Shown one piece after another: positions 2,525-63,585 of a stretch of DNA of 64,000 bases. Below the pieces are notes generated by a model, which made no database searches, was not told the origin of the DNA, and saw only the letters and a program-made list of their open reading frames with translations. The DNA lies in the NCBI GenBank assembly GCA_015686845.1, contig JADPRS010000017.1, positions 1-64,000 of the forward strand, given 5' to 3'. Source of the stretch: Lutibacter sp. B2 (GTDB lineage: Bacteria; Bacillota; Clostridia; Peptostreptococcales; Thermotaleaceae). Both the position numbers and the translations under genes were made by a program. Numbering within the stretch: the stretch's first letter is position 1; each line of letters begins with the position of its first letter.

Positions 2525-3511
2525 TTATAAAAATTCGTTAGTTTTCATCAAATCTCTTAGTATTTTTTCCATTTCTTCCTTGTTTTTCATTGTATTTGTC
2601 TGAGAACGTACTATGTTTGCATTTGCAATTCCTTTTAAATACCATCCTGCGTGCTTTCTCATTTCTTTAATAGCTACACGTTCCCCTTTGTTTTCAATTA
2701 ATAAGTCCATATGTCTCAATACCATAATGACTCTTTCTTCCAAGTTTGGCTCAGATAAAATTTCTCCTGTCTTTAAATAATGAACTACTCTATTAAAAAT
2801 CCAGGGGTCACCTTGTGCTCCTCTAGCAATCATAATCCCATCACACTTTGTAAATTCCATCATTTTTGCTGCATCCTCTACAGAAAAAATATCTCCATTT
2901 CCAATTACAGGTATAGTCACTGCCGCTTTCACTTTCTTTATGATTTCCCAATCTGCAGATCCTGTGTAAAATTGTTCTCTCGTTCTTCCATGTATTGCAA
3001 TGGCCTTCGCTCCATTTTCTTCTATCACTTTTGCCATTTCTACAGCATTAACGGACGTATCATCCCAGCCTTTTCTTATTTTCACTGTAACAGGTTTATC
3101 CGTTGCATTTACAACTGCTTTTACCACTTCACCTGCTAGTTTTGGATTTTTCATTAAGGCTGACCCGTCTCCATTTTTTGTTACTTTAGGCGTAGGACAT
3201 CCCATATTTATATCTAAGATAGCATTTTCATAATCATTTAGTTTTTCAGCAGCTCTTGCCATAAAATCTGGTTCCGAACCAAAGATCTGAAGTGCTACCG
3301 GTTTTTCTTTCTCATCTATTTTAAGTAAATTACCCGTCTTTTTATCGTCATAACAAAGTCCTTTTGCACTAACCATTTCTGTATAGACAAGACCTACGCC
3401 TTGTTCTTTACATAATAATCTAAATGACAAATCAGTTACTCCAGCCATTGGTCCTAAGAATACATTATTTTCTACATCAATATTACCGATTTTGATGTCA
3501 TTCACCTCCAT
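2525..3511 (-). CDS. dusB: tRNA-dihydrouridine synthase, DusB type
   Basis: FMN- and NADPH-dependent reduction of uridine to dihydrouridine in the tRNA D-loop. The 328-residue TIM-barrel protein opens with [12 protein letters not shown] (20-31), and the catalytic cysteine is C105 in [11 protein letters not shown], the signature of the family. The ATG at 3511 has AAGGG upstream; the strong GGAGGTGA falls just inside the reading frame, so the start is slightly uncertain. It follows birA by 38 nt and is probably cotranscribed. Dus genes next to greA-lysS are a conserved Firmicute arrangement. Confidence 0.95.
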
Positions 3512-32146: not shown

Positions 32147-32311
32147 TCAAAAAGTAGGGAAAGTTTTTCTTCCTGCTATAGAGCTGATGTTTATAATGGT
32201 TCCTTCATTTCTAGCTACTAATAGCAAAGGATAACCTTCTTTAGATAATTTGATGGCAGTCGCTCTGCCAATACCAGAACTTTCGCCTGTAATAACAATT
32301 ACTTTTTTCAT
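32147..32311 (-). pseudogene. Remnant of a short-chain dehydrogenase/reductase
   Basis: Only 54 codons remain. The first 35 residues are an intact SDR N-terminus with the cofactor loop TGESSGIGRAT and LLLVARN. They run directly into EGTIINISSIAGRKTFP, which in the family lies about 90 residues later, around the catalytic Ser. The frame then stops, so the YxxxK active site and C-terminal half are missing. An internal deletion plus a 3-prime truncation explains this. The ribosome site GGAGGG and start are still intact. Confidence 0.8.
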
Positions 32312-32350
32312 ATGATGCCCTCCCGTTTTATCTTTATATTCAAACTTTGT

Positions 32351-32369
32351 GATTTGATTATAACAAATC
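32351..32369 (-). promoter_or_regulatory. Palindrome around a -10 box upstream of the SDR remnant
   Basis: GATTTG-N7-CAAATC is perfectly symmetric and encloses TATAAT on the minus strand. It is probably the old operator-promoter of the decayed gene. Confidence 0.4.
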
Positions 32370-32527
32370 GAAAAGGTATTATTAAGTATGCACTTTTTTA
32401 GAATATAGTTTAACTGAAAAGGGAAAAACACTTTTGCCTATTTTATCTGTAATGTGTGAATAGAGAGAAAAAAATATGGACGAAAGATACAAGCTTATTA
32501 ATCCTCTTTGTGAGTAAATATTGTTTC

Positions 32528-32556
32528 AAAAAAAGAATCCCATGAAAGGGATTCTT
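32528..32556 (-). terminator. Terminator after the small transporter subunit gene
   Basis: AAGAATCCC pairs with GGGATTCTT around a 6-nt loop. T-rich on the minus strand; it overlaps the stop codon at 32555-32557. Confidence 0.85.
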
Positions 32557-32662
32557 ATTTTATGGCTTTTTCTTTTCTTATTGAAATCATTAGGGTAAGT
32601 AAGAATCCTCCCCAAAGCACCGTTGCTCCTATACTAAAAAATATCATTGCACTTCTTGTCAT
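32555..32662 (-). CDS. metS: Small subunit of NSS transporter (MetS family)
   Basis: A 35-residue protein starting MTRSAMIFFSIGATVLWGG, then one hydrophobic stretch ending in the basic tail ISIRKEKAIK. The N-terminal Thr/Ser-Ala-Ile, the IG..VLWGG core and the basic C-terminus match MetS, the single-helix subunit of the MetPS-type methionine/alanine importer. AGGTGA lies 6 nt before the ATG. It begins 16 nt after the NSS transporter stop, which is the usual MetP-MetS order. Too short for most gene callers. Confidence 0.82.
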   Translation of the reverse strand: MTRSAMIFFSIGATVLWGGFLLTLMISIRKEKAIK

Positions 32663-32678
32663 TTTTATCACCTACCTT

Positions 32679-34172
32679 CTATCCATTATTAGATTTTATA
32701 TTCTGTTTCCATGTTTTTTTACTGATTACGATGGAACCTACAATTCCTATTAGGATAATGCCCCATCCATAGACCATCAATGCTGGTAAATTGTATCCTC
32801 CATATGGCTTATGAACTTCTGTAATAAAGCTTTTTACTAGCATGAACGTTAAAATAATCGGCGTTACATATTGAACAATTATATCCCACCACTTTCCGAT
32901 TTTATAATAAGAAACGGAGTTTGTGTGTTCACGAATTGTTTTAGGTTTTATAATCCAACCTACTAAGATGGCTTCTAGCAATCCTATTACAACGATTCCA
33001 TAATTATTAATGAAATTATCCATAATATCTAATAAGTATAATCCTGCCTGTGTTGCAAAGGCGATGCTCATAATAAATCCACCTATACAAATTGCTGATA
33101 CTACTTTTTTACGTTCCCACTGTGTTTTATCTATGATGGCTGAAGATATGGCTTCAACCAGGGACACCGCTGATGTTAATCCTGCAAATACTAAACAAGA
33201 AAAGAATAATACAGATAATACATTTCCCCATGATCCCATAATTGAAAACACTTTCGGGAATGCTATAAACGCAAGTCCAATCCCACCAGATACAACCTCA
33301 TCAATGGGTACACCTTGATTTGTTGCCATAAAACCAAGTATTGCAAATACACCGATTGCAGATAAGAATTCAAATCCACAGTTTGCAAAAGCAGTCATGA
33401 ATGCACTATTGTTTATATCTGTTTTCTCAGGTAAGTAACTTGAATACGTCATCATAATCCCTGTGGCTATACTTAATGAAAAAAACACTTGTCCATATGC
33501 GGCAATCCAAACTTTAGGCTCTTTAACCTGTTGCCAATTTGGTGTAAATAATGTATTTAAACCTAATGAAGCACCTTTTAAAGTCAATCCTTTTATCACG
33601 ATTATGATCATTATTATTAATAAGGTTGGTAGTAATACCTTGCTTAATTTTTCAATTCCACCTTTGATTCCTTTATAACATATAATCCAGTTAACAATCC
33701 AAATTAAAGTTATTCCTATTAATATCGGTACAATGATGCTTCCAAATTGAAAGGGAGATGATGATAATTTCAATAAATCATTATAAAAATATTTATTGGT
33801 GTCACTTCCCCATCCTTTGTTAAAACTTAATGTTAAGTATTTTATAGCCCAACTTAAAATCATTGAATAATAGGTTAAGATGATTCCTGCATTAATTATA
33901 GGCCACCATCCAAGCCATTCCCATCTTTTGTTTGCTTTTGCTATTGCTAAAGGGGTTGAGCCTCTAAATTTATGACCCATTCCATATTCAAGAATTAATA
34001 ACGGTATTCCTGCTGTGAATATAGCAAAAAAGTATGGTATTAAAAAAGCGCCTCCTCCATTTGAATAAACTACATAAGGAAATCTCCATATATTTCCTAA
34101 TCCAACAGCAGAACCAATAGCTGCAAGTATAAACCCTAGCTTAGAACCCCATTCTTCTCTTGATTTTTCCAT
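32679..34172 (-). CDS. Sodium-dependent amino-acid transporter, NSS family
   Basis: 497 residues with about eleven to twelve transmembrane helices. The helix 1 signature GFILAAIGSAVGLGNIWRFP (13-32) holds the unwound Na+ and substrate site, and GGGAFLIPYF follows. NSS proteins import amino acids with Na+; LeuT takes leucine, MetP methionine and alanine. The adjacent MetS-like subunit puts it near MetP. The leader upstream encodes a Leu-run peptide, which suggests leucine or branched-chain amino acids as the controlling signal. AGGAGG precedes the ATG. Confidence 0.93.
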   Translation of the reverse strand: MEKSREEWGSKLGFILAAIGSAVGLGNIWRFPYVVYSNGGGAFLIPYFFAIFTAGIPLLILEYGMGHKFRGSTPLAIAKANKRWEWLGWWPIINAGIILTYYSMILSWAIKYLTLSFNKGWGSDTNKYFYNDLLKLSSSPFQFGSIIVPILIGITLIWIVNWIICYKGIKGGIEKLSKVLLPTLLIIMIIIVIKGLTLKGASLGLNTLFTPNWQQVKEPKVWIAAYGQVFFSLSIATGIMMTYSSYLPEKTDINNSAFMTAFANCGFEFLSAIGVFAILGFMATNQGVPIDEVVSGGIGLAFIAFPKVFSIMGSWGNVLSVLFFSCLVFAGLTSAVSLVEAISSAIIDKTQWERKKVVSAICIGGFIMSIAFATQAGLYLLDIMDNFINNYGIVVIGLLEAILVGWIIKPKTIREHTNSVSYYKIGKWWDIIVQYVTPIILTFMLVKSFITEVHKPYGGYNLPALMVYGWGIILIGIVGSIVISKKTWKQNIKSNNG

Positions 34173-34223
34173 GTTTAATCCTCCTAATAATATATCTGAT
34201 TTATTTTATTCTTATATATAAAT

Positions 34224-34259
34224 AAAAAAGTCCCATAGTTTATACTACGAGACTTTTTT
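34224..34259 (-). terminator. Leader terminator 2 before NSS gene
   Basis: AAAAAAGTCCCATAGT pairs with ACTACGAGACTTTTTT (G-U and one mismatch tolerated), followed by T-run on the minus strand. It lies 52 nt before the NSS start codon, so it must be read through or prevented for expression. Confidence 0.75.
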
Positions 34260-34273
34260 ACCTAGGATATAAC

Positions 34274-34303
34274 AAAAAGTCTCACAGTTCACCTATGAGA
34301 CTT
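34274..34303 (-). terminator. Leader terminator 1 before NSS gene
   Basis: AAGTCTCA (34277-34284) pairs with TGAGACTT (34296-34303), with TTTTTG after it on the minus strand. Its apical segment CATAGGTG can alternatively pair with the upstream RNA segment at 34365-34375. Confidence 0.75.
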
Positions 34304-34344
34304 AATATATTTACGCATAAATACGTAGCCCCCATAGATACAAA

Positions 34345-34405
34345 ACACCAATTCTGGCGATTGCATATATGGTGGTTATTCACACATCTATATCTGCAAT
34401 CGCTA
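34345..34405 (-). promoter_or_regulatory. Alternative RNA structures of the NSS leader
   Basis: Immediately after the leader peptide stop, TGCAATCGC (34395-34403) and GCGATTGCA (34358-34366) form a perfect 9-bp stem. CACCA (34347-34351) and TGGTG (34371-34375) form a second stem that crosses the first, so they are alternative or form a pseudoknot. Together with the two downstream terminators this looks like an attenuator. It matches no riboswitch class I know. Confidence 0.6.
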
Positions 34406-34471
34406 TTATAAGTTAGCTAATAAGAGCAAGTTATTTAATTGTGAGATAAATGTATTTGTTTTAATATTCAT
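34406..34471 (-). CDS. Leu-rich leader peptide (21 residues)
   Basis: ATG behind GAGGAG with 8 nt spacing. The peptide begins MNIKTNTF and residues 13-21 are NNLLLLANL, four consecutive Leu codons (TTG, CTC, TTA, TTA) near the end. LeuL of enteric bacteria also has four Leu codons in a row. The stop is 2 nt before a 9-bp stem and about 100 nt before tandem terminators. A ribosome stalled at the Leu codons would control which stem forms and hence expression of the downstream transporter. Confidence 0.72.
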   Translation of the reverse strand: MNIKTNTFISQLNNLLLLANL

Positions 34472-34502
34472 AATTTTTTCTCCTCTTTGATGATTTTTAA
34501 TA

Positions 34503-34531
34503 ATTTTAACACTCTTCTCTTAGTATGTCAA
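34503..34531 (-). promoter_or_regulatory. Promoter of the leader-NSS-metS operon
   Basis: On the minus strand TTGACA (34526-34531) and TAAAAT (34503-34508) are 17 bp apart, just after the spoIIE terminator. The leader to the NSS start is about 320 nt. Confidence 0.78.
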
Positions 34532-34566: not shown

Positions 34567-36957
34567 CTATGATTTCCATAGTTTTGACACTAATACGGTC
34601 ATGTCATCTGCAACCTTATTTCCATATCTCTCTATAGCCTCATCCATAAGAGTATCTGCAATAGTTTGAGGATTTCTGCTTTTGATCTCTCTTAGGGTGT
34701 CTATTACCCAGTTTTCTTTTTCCTCTATCCCTGCATCGGATACACCATCAGACATCATGATTGCAAAATCTCCATCTTCAAGCTTATATCCAAAGCTTTC
34801 TATATCTACATTGTTTAAAATACCAATTGGCAGTGTTGTTGATTTAATCACTTCTACCTGTCCATTTGCTCTTCTTACAAAACTAGCTGCTGCCCCTATT
34901 TTTACAAATTCTATTTTACCTGTATATAGATCAAGTATTGATAAATCCATGGTAGAAAATATTTCATCTGATGATTTTAAAACCAATATGGAATTTATGG
35001 TCTTAATGGCTAAATCCTTTTCAAATCCTGCTTCCATAAGCTGTTCAAGGACGGTCATAGTAGCCATACTCTCTTTCGCTGCCTTTTCTCCTGAACCCAT
35101 TCCGTCACTTATGGCCATCATACGCTTTCCATCTTCTAAATCTATAAATGAATAGTTATCTCCAGAAATCCATGTATTATCCTTCGCAACCCTTGCAACG
35201 CCTGTTGCTATACGGTATTTTTGTGCCTCGACTAATTTAAATGTACAGGTGTCTCTTCCTTGGTCTGCTTTGCAGTATTGGCTCTTTCTTGTTACTTTTC
35301 TTCCGATCACCTTTGATACGATAGGGACAATTCTTTCATCACATTGATTTCTATCAAAGCATGCTCTTTTCTCTATTTCTATCTCAAATTTGTCATCTTT
35401 CTTTTCTAAGACAGTTATATTTTTAACGGCTATTCCCTCTTTATCAAATGCAATATATAATGCATCCTCTACTTCTGTAAGAAAGTGCATCGTGTTGTCC
35501 ATTTCATCGGCTAAATTGGTGAAAATAGATGATATTCCTTCAAATTGCTCTGCTATAAGTTGTCTACTTTCAAACATTTTCTTCTGCCATTGATAATCTA
35601 TTTTATCAATCTCAAAACGATCTCTAATTCCTTGTACAAGTAAATCTAATCTTATACATCTCTTTTTTAATATGTGAGGAACTTGGTCAGATTTTAATGT
35701 ACCATATTCCTCAAGTATAGAAACAGCCTCCACAACTCCATTATACATATTATAGAAGTTATGATTCCAACAGCTTCTATACATACCGCAGTCATGACAC
35801 TGTTTTCCTGCAATTTCATTGACCATGCGAGAAACTTCTTCTTGGTCAAGCTTTTTACTTTTCTCTGCCATATTTCCGTATGTAGCAGATAATTCTGAAA
35901 AGGCTGTAGAATATTCATCTAATCTTTTTACTGTAAGTTTTTTAATCCGATCCGTATAAGATTGTTCTATGTTTATATTTTGAACTCCGACAAACTTTTC
36001 CATGTATTTCGTAATTGATTTTGGCATAAATAGAAATGCTAGAAATGCAATAATCATCTCTTCATGTTGAATTAATATTTCAGTAGCTCCGTTTATGTAA
36101 AATGTTAGTATTATATTTCCAAGGATTATACCTACTACAGATGCCCATTTTCCTAAGTCCTTAAATATACCTGCTAAAAGTCCGCAGAATCCATAAATCC
36201 CTACTAGATAGGGTGCATCTATGGTAGACATACTTGTAATCATTCCTATCGTAATTCCTACGCTTGCTCCTACACTTGCTCCTCCATTGTATGCAAATAC
36301 CAGTGTTAATAATATTCCACAAATATTTTTTATCTGATACGGTCCTACAAATATGTCAGATAAACCTGAAATCACGATGGATATTAGAATTGCAATACAG
36401 ATTAGTTCTTCATTAGACAATACTTTTCTGTTGGTTCTTTGGAGTAGTACTGGCATTGCATTGGCAAGAATATATACAAATACAAATGCTACAATAGACT
36501 CAAATCCAATCATGAGTGCATCATATATATAAAAATCCGTACTGCTTGTGACGATGAGTCCTGATACAAGCAAATTTATTCCTGCAATTCCTGCAATATA
36601 GTATGTTGTATACCTTAATCTCTTTTTAGAGTAAGCGAGTATTGTAAATGAGCTAATCATCGCCAAACCATATTTTATTAGGTCCATTTCAAGTCCTTTT
36701 GTAAATACACCCAGTAAAACACCGACGCCTAAATATGCGTATTTATTTTCTCTAGAAACTAAATATGCAAAAAATGCAACGCCAAAAGGAGCTAGTCCAT
36801 CCAAAATGTTTGCTCGTCCTAATAAAATGGATATGGCTATTAACACGACTATGTTTTTAGATATATAAAAATTTAATGTACTACTCTTTTCTTTTAAGTC
36901 CATTTCCGCGTCTGAAATGCATTCTTTGTTATACAGAACGATATCTACCTTTTGCAT
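34567..36957 (-). CDS. spoIIE: Stage II sporulation protein E (PP2C phosphatase)
   Basis: Dephosphorylates SpoIIAA to release sigma-F in the forespore and takes part in polar septation. 796 residues: about ten N-terminal transmembrane helices (about 25-320), a central FtsZ-interacting region, and a C-terminal PP2C domain (about 580-796) with metal-binding ISDGMGSGEKAAKES and MMSDGVSDAGIEEKENW. The length is close to Bacillus SpoIIE (827). The ATG has GGTGGTG upstream. The promoter at 36992-37024 has a 21-bp spacer like Bacillus spoIIE. Usual downstream neighbours yabS and yabT are displaced by the accessory block. Confidence 0.97.
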   Translation of the reverse strand: MQKVDIVLYNKECISDAEMDLKEKSSTLNFYISKNIVVLIAISILLGRANILDGLAPFGVAFFAYLVSRENKYAYLGVGVLLGVFTKGLEMDLIKYGLAMISSFTILAYSKKRLRYTTYYIAGIAGINLLVSGLIVTSSTDFYIYDALMIGFESIVAFVFVYILANAMPVLLQRTNRKVLSNEELICIAILISIVISGLSDIFVGPYQIKNICGILLTLVFAYNGGASVGASVGITIGMITSMSTIDAPYLVGIYGFCGLLAGIFKDLGKWASVVGIILGNIILTFYINGATEILIQHEEMIIAFLAFLFMPKSITKYMEKFVGVQNINIEQSYTDRIKKLTVKRLDEYSTAFSELSATYGNMAEKSKKLDQEEVSRMVNEIAGKQCHDCGMYRSCWNHNFYNMYNGVVEAVSILEEYGTLKSDQVPHILKKRCIRLDLLVQGIRDRFEIDKIDYQWQKKMFESRQLIAEQFEGISSIFTNLADEMDNTMHFLTEVEDALYIAFDKEGIAVKNITVLEKKDDKFEIEIEKRACFDRNQCDERIVPIVSKVIGRKVTRKSQYCKADQGRDTCTFKLVEAQKYRIATGVARVAKDNTWISGDNYSFIDLEDGKRMMAISDGMGSGEKAAKESMATMTVLEQLMEAGFEKDLAIKTINSILVLKSSDEIFSTMDLSILDLYTGKIEFVKIGAAASFVRRANGQVEVIKSTTLPIGILNNVDIESFGYKLEDGDFAIMMSDGVSDAGIEEKENWVIDTLREIKSRNPQTIADTLMDEAIERYGNKVADDMTVLVSKLWKS

Positions 36958-63324: not shown

Positions 63325-63399
63325 AAAAAAAACACTCAAAGAATAAAAGGTCCCCTTGACTGTTATTGAAATTTTTCAATATACCTTTTACCCTTTGTG
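63325..63399 (-). terminator. Riboswitch-controlled terminator of lysC
   Basis: The left arm (63383-63399) pairs with the right arm (63333-63351), sharing ACCTTTTA/TAAAAGGT and CTTTG/CAAAG, followed by eight T. The loop contains the antiterminator partner 63358-63369. Confidence 0.85.
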
Positions 63400-63585
63400 T
63401 AATAGCTCTTTATTGATAAATTGGGTTATTTATCAATAACAGTCTTATGTTTATTCAACATAAACCCAATATATAAACCCAGGAAAATTTATATATTTCG
63501 GCGACGATTCCTTTCTTATAAGCTCAACGAATTCCTTATCCTCACTTATAATACTCTTAATCTATCGCATCCTCTAGAACACAAA
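63394..63585 (-). promoter_or_regulatory. Lysine riboswitch aptamer (L box) of lysC
   Basis: On the minus strand, conserved lysine-riboswitch segments occur in order: CTAGAGGATGCGA, AAGAGTA, GAAAGGAATCGTCGCCGAA, CCTGGGTTTATATATTGGG and GACTGTTATTGA. P1 is formed by TTTGTGTTCTAG (63574-63585) with the segment at 63394-63407. A hairpin TTATTGATAAAT/ATTTATCAATAA lies at 63410-63439. Lysine binding should stabilise P1 and allow the downstream terminator to form, switching lysC off. Confidence 0.93.

Follow-up and report, generated by a model that had tools for sequence, protein, structure and literature searches.

How the expression of a sodium:neurotransmitter symporter (NSS) family transporter is controlled is the question raised by the long leader that precedes its gene in a 64,000-nucleotide stretch of DNA from Lutibacter sp. 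B2, the whole of which was analysed and is referred to here as the window. The gene (32679–34172, minus strand) encodes a protein of 497 amino acids that matches Pfam PF00209 (E 1.3e-116), and is accompanied by a small MetS-like NSS subunit of 38 amino acids (32555–32671, minus strand; NCBIfam NF033493, 31.1 bits against a cut-off of 25). The upstream neighbour of the leader is spoIIE, which has a terminator of its own at 34568–34545. An Rfam scan returned no family at cut-off in the leader (34173–34531), known riboswitch families included. The leader is likely to be a leader-peptide transcription attenuator that reads Leu codons and governs the NSS transporter, the substrate of which is probably leucine or other branched-chain amino acids, a reading for which there are no experimental data.

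The anatomy of the leader, which is shown here, spans 34531–34226 on the minus strand, to which all features described below belong. A sigma-70 type promoter, TTGACA-17-TAAAAT (34503–34531), has 11 of 12 matches and a TG ahead of the −10 element, and in the leader comparison a TTGAC-type −35 was also found 5' of homologous upstream ORFs (uORFs). The ribosome binding site AGAGGAG (34480–34486) was assigned by its sequence, and a purine-rich Shine–Dalgarno (SD) type site precedes every homologous uORF in the same comparison. The leader ORF itself (34406–34471; MNIKTNTFISQLNNLLLLANL) has 21 codons, among them the control codons TTG CTC TTA TTA (34418–34429), of which the CTC at 34426–34424 is invariant in homologs; homolog indels inside the ORF are all multiples of 3. 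The end of the Leu run forms strand 0 (TAGCT, 34415–34419), which is assigned to strand 3' (GGCTA, 34326–34330) on the basis of covariation and a swap test in Cetobacterium; the base of terminator 1 competes with strand 0 for strand 3'. Strand 1 (GCGATTGCA, 34395–34403) begins 2 nt past the ORF stop. Strand 2 (CCATATATGCAATCGC, 34357–34372) pairs either with strand 1 or with strand 3 (TTGTATCTATGG, 34332–34343), and strand 3 in turn has two possible partners, strand 2 in the OFF state and the left arm of terminator 1 in the ON state. Stem 1:2, which is supported by covariation among the leaders, joins 34403–34395 with TGCAATCGC at 34365–34357 in the window, and the crossing stem joins 34372–34360 with 34343–34332. 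Terminator 1 (34277–34303; left arm 34303–34293, right arm 34287–34277) and terminator 2 (34226–34257; left arm 34257–34244, right arm 34239–34226) flank the nearly invariant TATCCTAGG (34261–34269), the apical loop of a proposed relay hairpin. The region contains five terminator-like sites on both strands, against 0.3 expected from shuffles; terminator 2 was missed by the first terminator scan and was detected with a separate script.

That the leader ORF is conserved as a coding sequence is also shown. NSS transporter homologs were collected from 80 genome loci for the leader comparison, and the same leader was found at 16 other loci, ahead of orthologous NSS transporters, in Clostridium tetanomorphum, C. 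brassicae, C. aestuarii, C. acetireducens, C. senegalense, Romboutsia, Faecalimicrobium, Tissierella, and others. The Cetobacterium (Fusobacteria) NSS gene is also preceded by this leader, and, as a point against the attenuator reading, most Clostridium orthologs among the listed loci are without it. Each homologous uORF has an SD site and an ATG, changes its length in threes, and ends with a stop codon adjoining strand 1, the SD site, the frame, and the Leu run being kept in the 17 aligned leaders as well as in L181/L239 and L238. The 5' half of the uORF drifts (2.1–2.6 bits of entropy over codons −14 to −7 relative to CTC); entropy is lower beside the Leu run, and the Asn at −3 and the Leu run itself are invariant. 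The CTC codon accounts for only 23 of 1339 Leu codons (1.7%) in the long ORFs of the window, and it is kept in 17 of 17 aligned leaders and in both Cetobacterium leaders; we infer that this rare codon has been retained as would be expected of a sensor of Leu-tRNA. Variants of the run differ by whole codons or synonymously (CTC TTA TTA; CTC TTA TTA TTA; CTC TTG TTA GTA; CTC TTA TTG TTA), and the Cetobacterium runs read CTC CTA TTA CTG or CTC CTA CTA CTG. Conservation also extends to the residues 3' of the run (A-[NDE]-L), a feature that the counting of codons alone would not call for and that RNA pairing explains in part. Insertions between the leader and the NSS gene were also observed, namely a Clostridiales-2 RNA (RF02937) at 3154–3234 in L002 and repeated palindromic units in L064.

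The alternative pairings are shown to be conserved and to covary. Stem 1:2 is paired in 153 of 153 cells (100%) with 2 compensatory columns, compared with 24–50% of cells for slid versions of the stem, and its covariation score was matched by none of 500 shuffles. Strand 2:3 together with strand 0:3' is 95% paired, also with two compensatory columns. In the conserved antiterminator (34339–34330 with 34300–34291), strand 3 and GGCT bind the left arm of terminator 1, with 120 of 120 cells paired and one compensatory column. Strand 0 (UUAGCY) and strand 3' (GGCUAAU) are nearly invariant across Clostridia; in Cetobacterium, TTA is replaced synonymously by CTG or CTA, and strand 3' changes from GGCTAAT to GCCAGTAG. 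When these Cetobacterium strands were swapped, the 0:3' pair weakened to about −4 to −8 kcal/mol from the −13.7 to −16.0 kcal/mol of the own pairs. The same pair is weak in the window (−5.6 kcal/mol), where the alternative states have near-equal energies (in kcal/mol: H1 −16.6 and H2 −17.1; antiterminator −12.1 and terminator 1 −15.0; relay −13.2 and terminator 2 −15.8). In an equilibrium partition-function scan, terminator 1 persisted at every assumed ribosome front, a result that is neither for nor against switching. Since equilibrium folding always retains terminator 1, any switching must be kinetic, as in textbook attenuators, and the kinetics were not modelled.

These results bear on an original prediction made from the sequence alone, in which the locus had been read as a leucine attenuator. 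The promoter, ribosome binding site, 21-codon ORF, four Leu codons, crossing stems, and tandem terminators that it described were all confirmed at their positions on the minus strand. The attenuator reading is supported by conservation and covariation, the response to leucine itself being inferred and not measured; moreover, its expectation that an alignment of homologous leaders would show the Leu run kept while the peptide drifts, with covarying stems, was borne out. The antiterminator that it guessed, 34365–34375 with 34290–34297, failed, as it amounts only to CACC:GGTG in the window and is absent from homologs, and the partner is corrected here to strand 3.

An attenuator of this kind is recognized by a short, translated-looking ORF with clustered control codons just 5' of the switch and by mutually exclusive stems, including a terminator and an antiterminator, that are backed by covariation, and the leader satisfies both criteria. 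In the course of events set out below, the positions of the ribosome, the order of the kinetic steps, the role of leucine as signal, and the relay are all inferred. With ample Leu-tRNA, the ribosome would reach the stop codon and cover the adjoining strand 1, whereupon strands 2:3 would pair, both terminators would form, and transcription would halt (OFF). With scarce Leu-tRNA, the ribosome would stall at CTC/TTA, about 17–23 nt upstream of strand 1, masking strand 0 and leaving strand 1 free; strands 1:2 would form first, and strands 3 and 3' would become available to the left arm of terminator 1 (ON). The right arm of terminator 1, now free, could in turn bind the left arm of terminator 2, so that both terminators would be disarmed and the transporter would be made. 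In the window, the stop codon is no more than 2 nt from strand 1 and CTC lies about 23 nt upstream of it. A ribosome footprint extends about 12–15 nt beyond the A site, and it follows from this footprint and the spacing that a ribosome at the stop codon would cover strand 1 and that a Leu-stalled ribosome would cover strand 0 instead.

The identity of the amino acid is also addressed by orthologs that lack the uORF. Two NSS orthologs from the family to which the window belongs (L003 and L004, 65–67% identical) carry T-boxes, the specifier of which is AUC, isoleucine, according to the RF00230 alignment, as it is in L101. With one more pair added to the stem, the T-box loop of another ortholog (L092), GAA-CUC-G-UUCUC, would present CUC (leucine), which is our own reading. 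The NSS gene in lineages without the uORF thus appears tied to Ile or Leu tRNA. T-box leaders of other Clostridia control the same transporter family, likewise through the charging of Ile or Leu tRNA; however, they bind the tRNA directly and have no uORF, whereas the leader of the window has one, and no RF00230 match at cut-off was found in the window. In a comparison with PDB chains, the NSS protein of the window was closest to eukaryotic-type NSS chains, which leaves its substrate unsettled. Taken with the matching between codons and genes in the sister leaders described below, the T-box specifiers point to a transporter of leucine or branched-chain amino acids, a substrate that is inferred and lacks direct proof.

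The original prediction had treated the leader as an isolated case, and this view needs to be changed, as the scaffold is a wider one of which the leader is a single version. To retrieve sister leaders, a covariance model derived from Leu leaders only was used alongside RF04312, the trpB motif, and both retrieve leaders that have the same layout and other codons. All strong matches to the Leu-leader model precede this NSS clade. Phe/Tyr leaders (...LNNSFFFSFFR and ...NTYYYGYYR) precede a second NSS clade, the closest solved relative of which is 4us3, which we take to be MhsT, and ...NIYYFSYFG and ...FYFSYYS precede BrnQ-family genes (TIGR00796 over cut-off). Leaders ending in ...HHHHHR precede hisZ, hisS and, in Fusobacteria, a gene for an amino-acid ABC binding protein; ...RQPIPPR precedes putP, aromatic codons precede DAHP synthase, and Trp codons precede trpX. 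In a hand-compiled table, the last ten codons contain on average 5.0 Leu and 0.06 Phe/Tyr/Trp in NSS-A leaders, 0.07 and 4.9, respectively, in NSS-B leaders, and 3.6 His in his leaders. Across the Leu, NSS-B, and BrnQ leaders, UUAGCU or an RNA sequence close to it appears in differing reading frames (TTA GCT; TTT AGC TAT; TGG CTA), from which we infer that the RNA is the fixed part of the scaffold and the codons are the replaceable part. Leader codons would allow the specificity of transporters that are still poorly characterised to be predicted: for this NSS clade, for the second NSS clade, for the BrnQ members with Phe/Tyr leaders, and for the Fusobacterial ABC transporter with His leaders.

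Several individual loci may be recorded beside these classes. BrnQ-family transporters annotated as branched-chain (L145, L146, L148–L151, L153, L202) have Tyr/Phe/Trp-rich leaders, suggesting aromatic substrates. In Fusobacteriales (L208–L236), His leaders occur at the ABC binding protein, Pro leaders at putP (L224, L232, L236), and an aromatic leader at DAHP synthase (L214). The genome of the window contains a second leader on this scaffold (G000:C18:96752–96934, L032/L152; MKNLLSKSAQIIFISQFR), before an ABC permease/ATPase pair; its relatives share ...F.SQFR and give no clear codon signal. Five loci with weak RF04312 or R1 matches (L054, L160, L164, L165, L170) have no leader-like uORF and are probably due to chance.

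The relation to the trpB motif deserves separate attention. RF04312 gave the best sub-threshold match in the leader (34373–34268, model positions 1–107), with 38.0 bits against a cut-off of 59 and E values of 0.00085 on 501 bases and 0.0013 on the genome; since the cut-off is unmet, the leader is not filed as a member of this family. The window nonetheless contains features of the RF04312 type, namely a P1 hairpin with GGCU and then an intrinsic terminator after it. Both share the order of a hairpin with an AGAU/AUCU stem, GGCU past the right shoulder as a possible antiterminator, and a terminator, and both types are found in Firmicutes and Fusobacteria at amino-acid genes. They differ in that the RF04312 model leaves out the uORF and strand 1, and in that the loci above cut-off read Trp codons, whereas the window reads Leu codons. 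RF04312 is above cut-off in 50 of 276 genomes of one order of Bacillota, and the motif is preceded by an SD-led, Trp-containing uORF ending just before it in all 30 of the loci that were fetched (L237, L251–L279; 61.6–86.6 bits), 27 of which have at least two Trp codons (...WQNWRR). Elsewhere in these loci, at least one Trp codon occurs in 22% of cases and at least two in 5.6%, and for shuffled sequences the figures are 11% and 0.7%; the 30 loci are related and, hence, are not 30 independent events. The genes behind the motif are mostly trpX, with trpB in L256, L263, and L267, and an HMM check of four N-termini identified trpB in L256 and L263 and trpX in the other two. Only modest support comes from the pairing between the Trp-codon segment and the distal strand, at −8.3 kcal/mol for own pairs, −7.4 kcal/mol for swapped pairs, and −5.9 kcal/mol for shuffled ones. 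A bolder reading, which we favour by a narrow margin as a whole, is that a single scaffold, present in Clostridia, other Bacillota, and Fusobacteria, was repeatedly recoded among Trp, His, Leu, Phe/Tyr, and Pro, that the trpB motif is its Trp version, and that the tandem terminators of many members are disarmed by a domino of arm exchanges. Retargeting would, in this bolder reading, proceed by codon change in or before strand 0 and by frame shift through fixed RNA such as UUAGCU. It would provide a concrete and testable answer for an orphan riboswitch candidate, and would indicate that, outside Proteobacteria too, attenuation mediated by ribosomes is a common mechanism and one that is easy to retarget.

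One rival is a small-molecule riboswitch that binds an amino acid, with an incidental uORF, as proposed for the trpB motif, which has been published as a strong riboswitch candidate by authors who did not rule out a classic attenuator (PMC11109978). The conserved hairpins, the tandem terminators, the position in a transporter 5' UTR, and that publication speak for it. Nevertheless, the uORF has the appearance of a translated ORF and its end adjoins strand 1, specificity tracks the codons (Leu, Phe/Tyr, His, Pro, Trp) and not the RNA, before genes of the matching amino acid, and Trp-codon uORFs occur at every trpB-motif locus fetched as opposed to about a fifth of other positions, which makes this rival very improbable. 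A nascent-peptide arrest like that of TnaC, in which the peptide and free leucine, rather than starvation, would stall the ribosome, could account for the conserved end LLLxA[NDE]L and for the invariant Asn ahead of the run. However, unrelated peptides occur on the same scaffold, Leu codons are gained or lost whole and change synonymously, and stalling in excess leucine would switch uptake on amid plenty; thus, this explanation also appears highly unlikely.

A third alternative touches only the relay step and is compatible with leucine attenuation: the tandem terminators could be a plain strong double terminator, of which only terminator 1 is regulated, and the complementarity between the right arm of terminator 1 (T1R) and the left arm of terminator 2 (T2L) could be a by-product of duplication. 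Together with the U run and the A run, the complementary arms give a single hairpin that encloses the conserved UCCUAGG. The arms of both terminators are near copies, so that duplication or gene conversion would yield cross-pairing, few independent events underlie the covariation, and the control pairing of the left arm of terminator 1 with the right arm of terminator 2 (T1L:T2R) scores as well as T1R:T2L among the Phe/Tyr leaders. Against this, among 15 Leu-class leaders T1R:T2L has 0 mismatches, compared with 5 in T1L:T2R and 4 in terminator 1 itself; in three Clostridium leaders (L065, L066, L116), T1R, T2L, and T2R changed in concert and T1L, which is constrained by strand 3, remained unchanged, leaving a mismatch inside terminator 1; and antitermination at terminator 1 would be futile were terminator 2 left armed. 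On balance, the evidence tilts slightly away from the plain double terminator. Selection for a relay, in which the opening of terminator 1 also opens terminator 2, is suggested by the covariation of the arms and remains a possibility, less certain than the rest of the proposal, its support being limited by the few independent events and by arm duplication, which might explain part of it. If true, the relay would be a new way of controlling tandem terminators. In all of the structures considered, the almost invariant AUAUCCUAGG (34261–34270) is confined to a loop; most Phe/Tyr leaders also contain its UCCUAGG core.

Leucine attenuation by this leader would have precedents. In E. coli, leuL is a leucine leader-peptide attenuator, and the ilv-leu operon of S. 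aureus has a Leu-rich attenuator peptide (PMC5794164). By analogy, the leader of the window would operate through attenuation of the leuL type, for which Firmicute precedents exist, as it has in common with these systems a short uORF with consecutive Leu codons, stalling of the ribosome (inferred for the window), exclusive stems, and an intrinsic terminator. However, leuL and ilv-leu govern biosynthesis operons and the window leader precedes an NSS transporter; it differs from them, moreover, in its RNA scaffold, in the tandem terminators with complementary arms, and in control codons that pair distally. His leader-peptide attenuators of Firmicutes have been described for his genes in separate lineages (PMC2965389, PMC9413887) and are similar in their His-codon uORFs before hisZ/hisS or his operons and in their alternative hairpins, although the relevant passages of these papers make no link to Leu, Phe/Tyr, Trp, or Pro leaders or to the trpB motif. 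The original prediction knew of no attenuator of this type described for an NSS/MetS pair, and the open-access literature searched describes no NSS gene under such control; nor does it give an account of a link between the codon classes, of what the trpB motif is, or of the relay.

Two further features of the window were observed outside the leader. A short fragment on the minus strand (32147–32431) resembles the start of a short-chain dehydrogenase (MKKVIVITGESSGIGRATAIKLS...) and ends early, in a manner that resembles gene decay, and a lysine riboswitch (RF00168, 111.5 bits) is located at 63395–63584 on the same strand.
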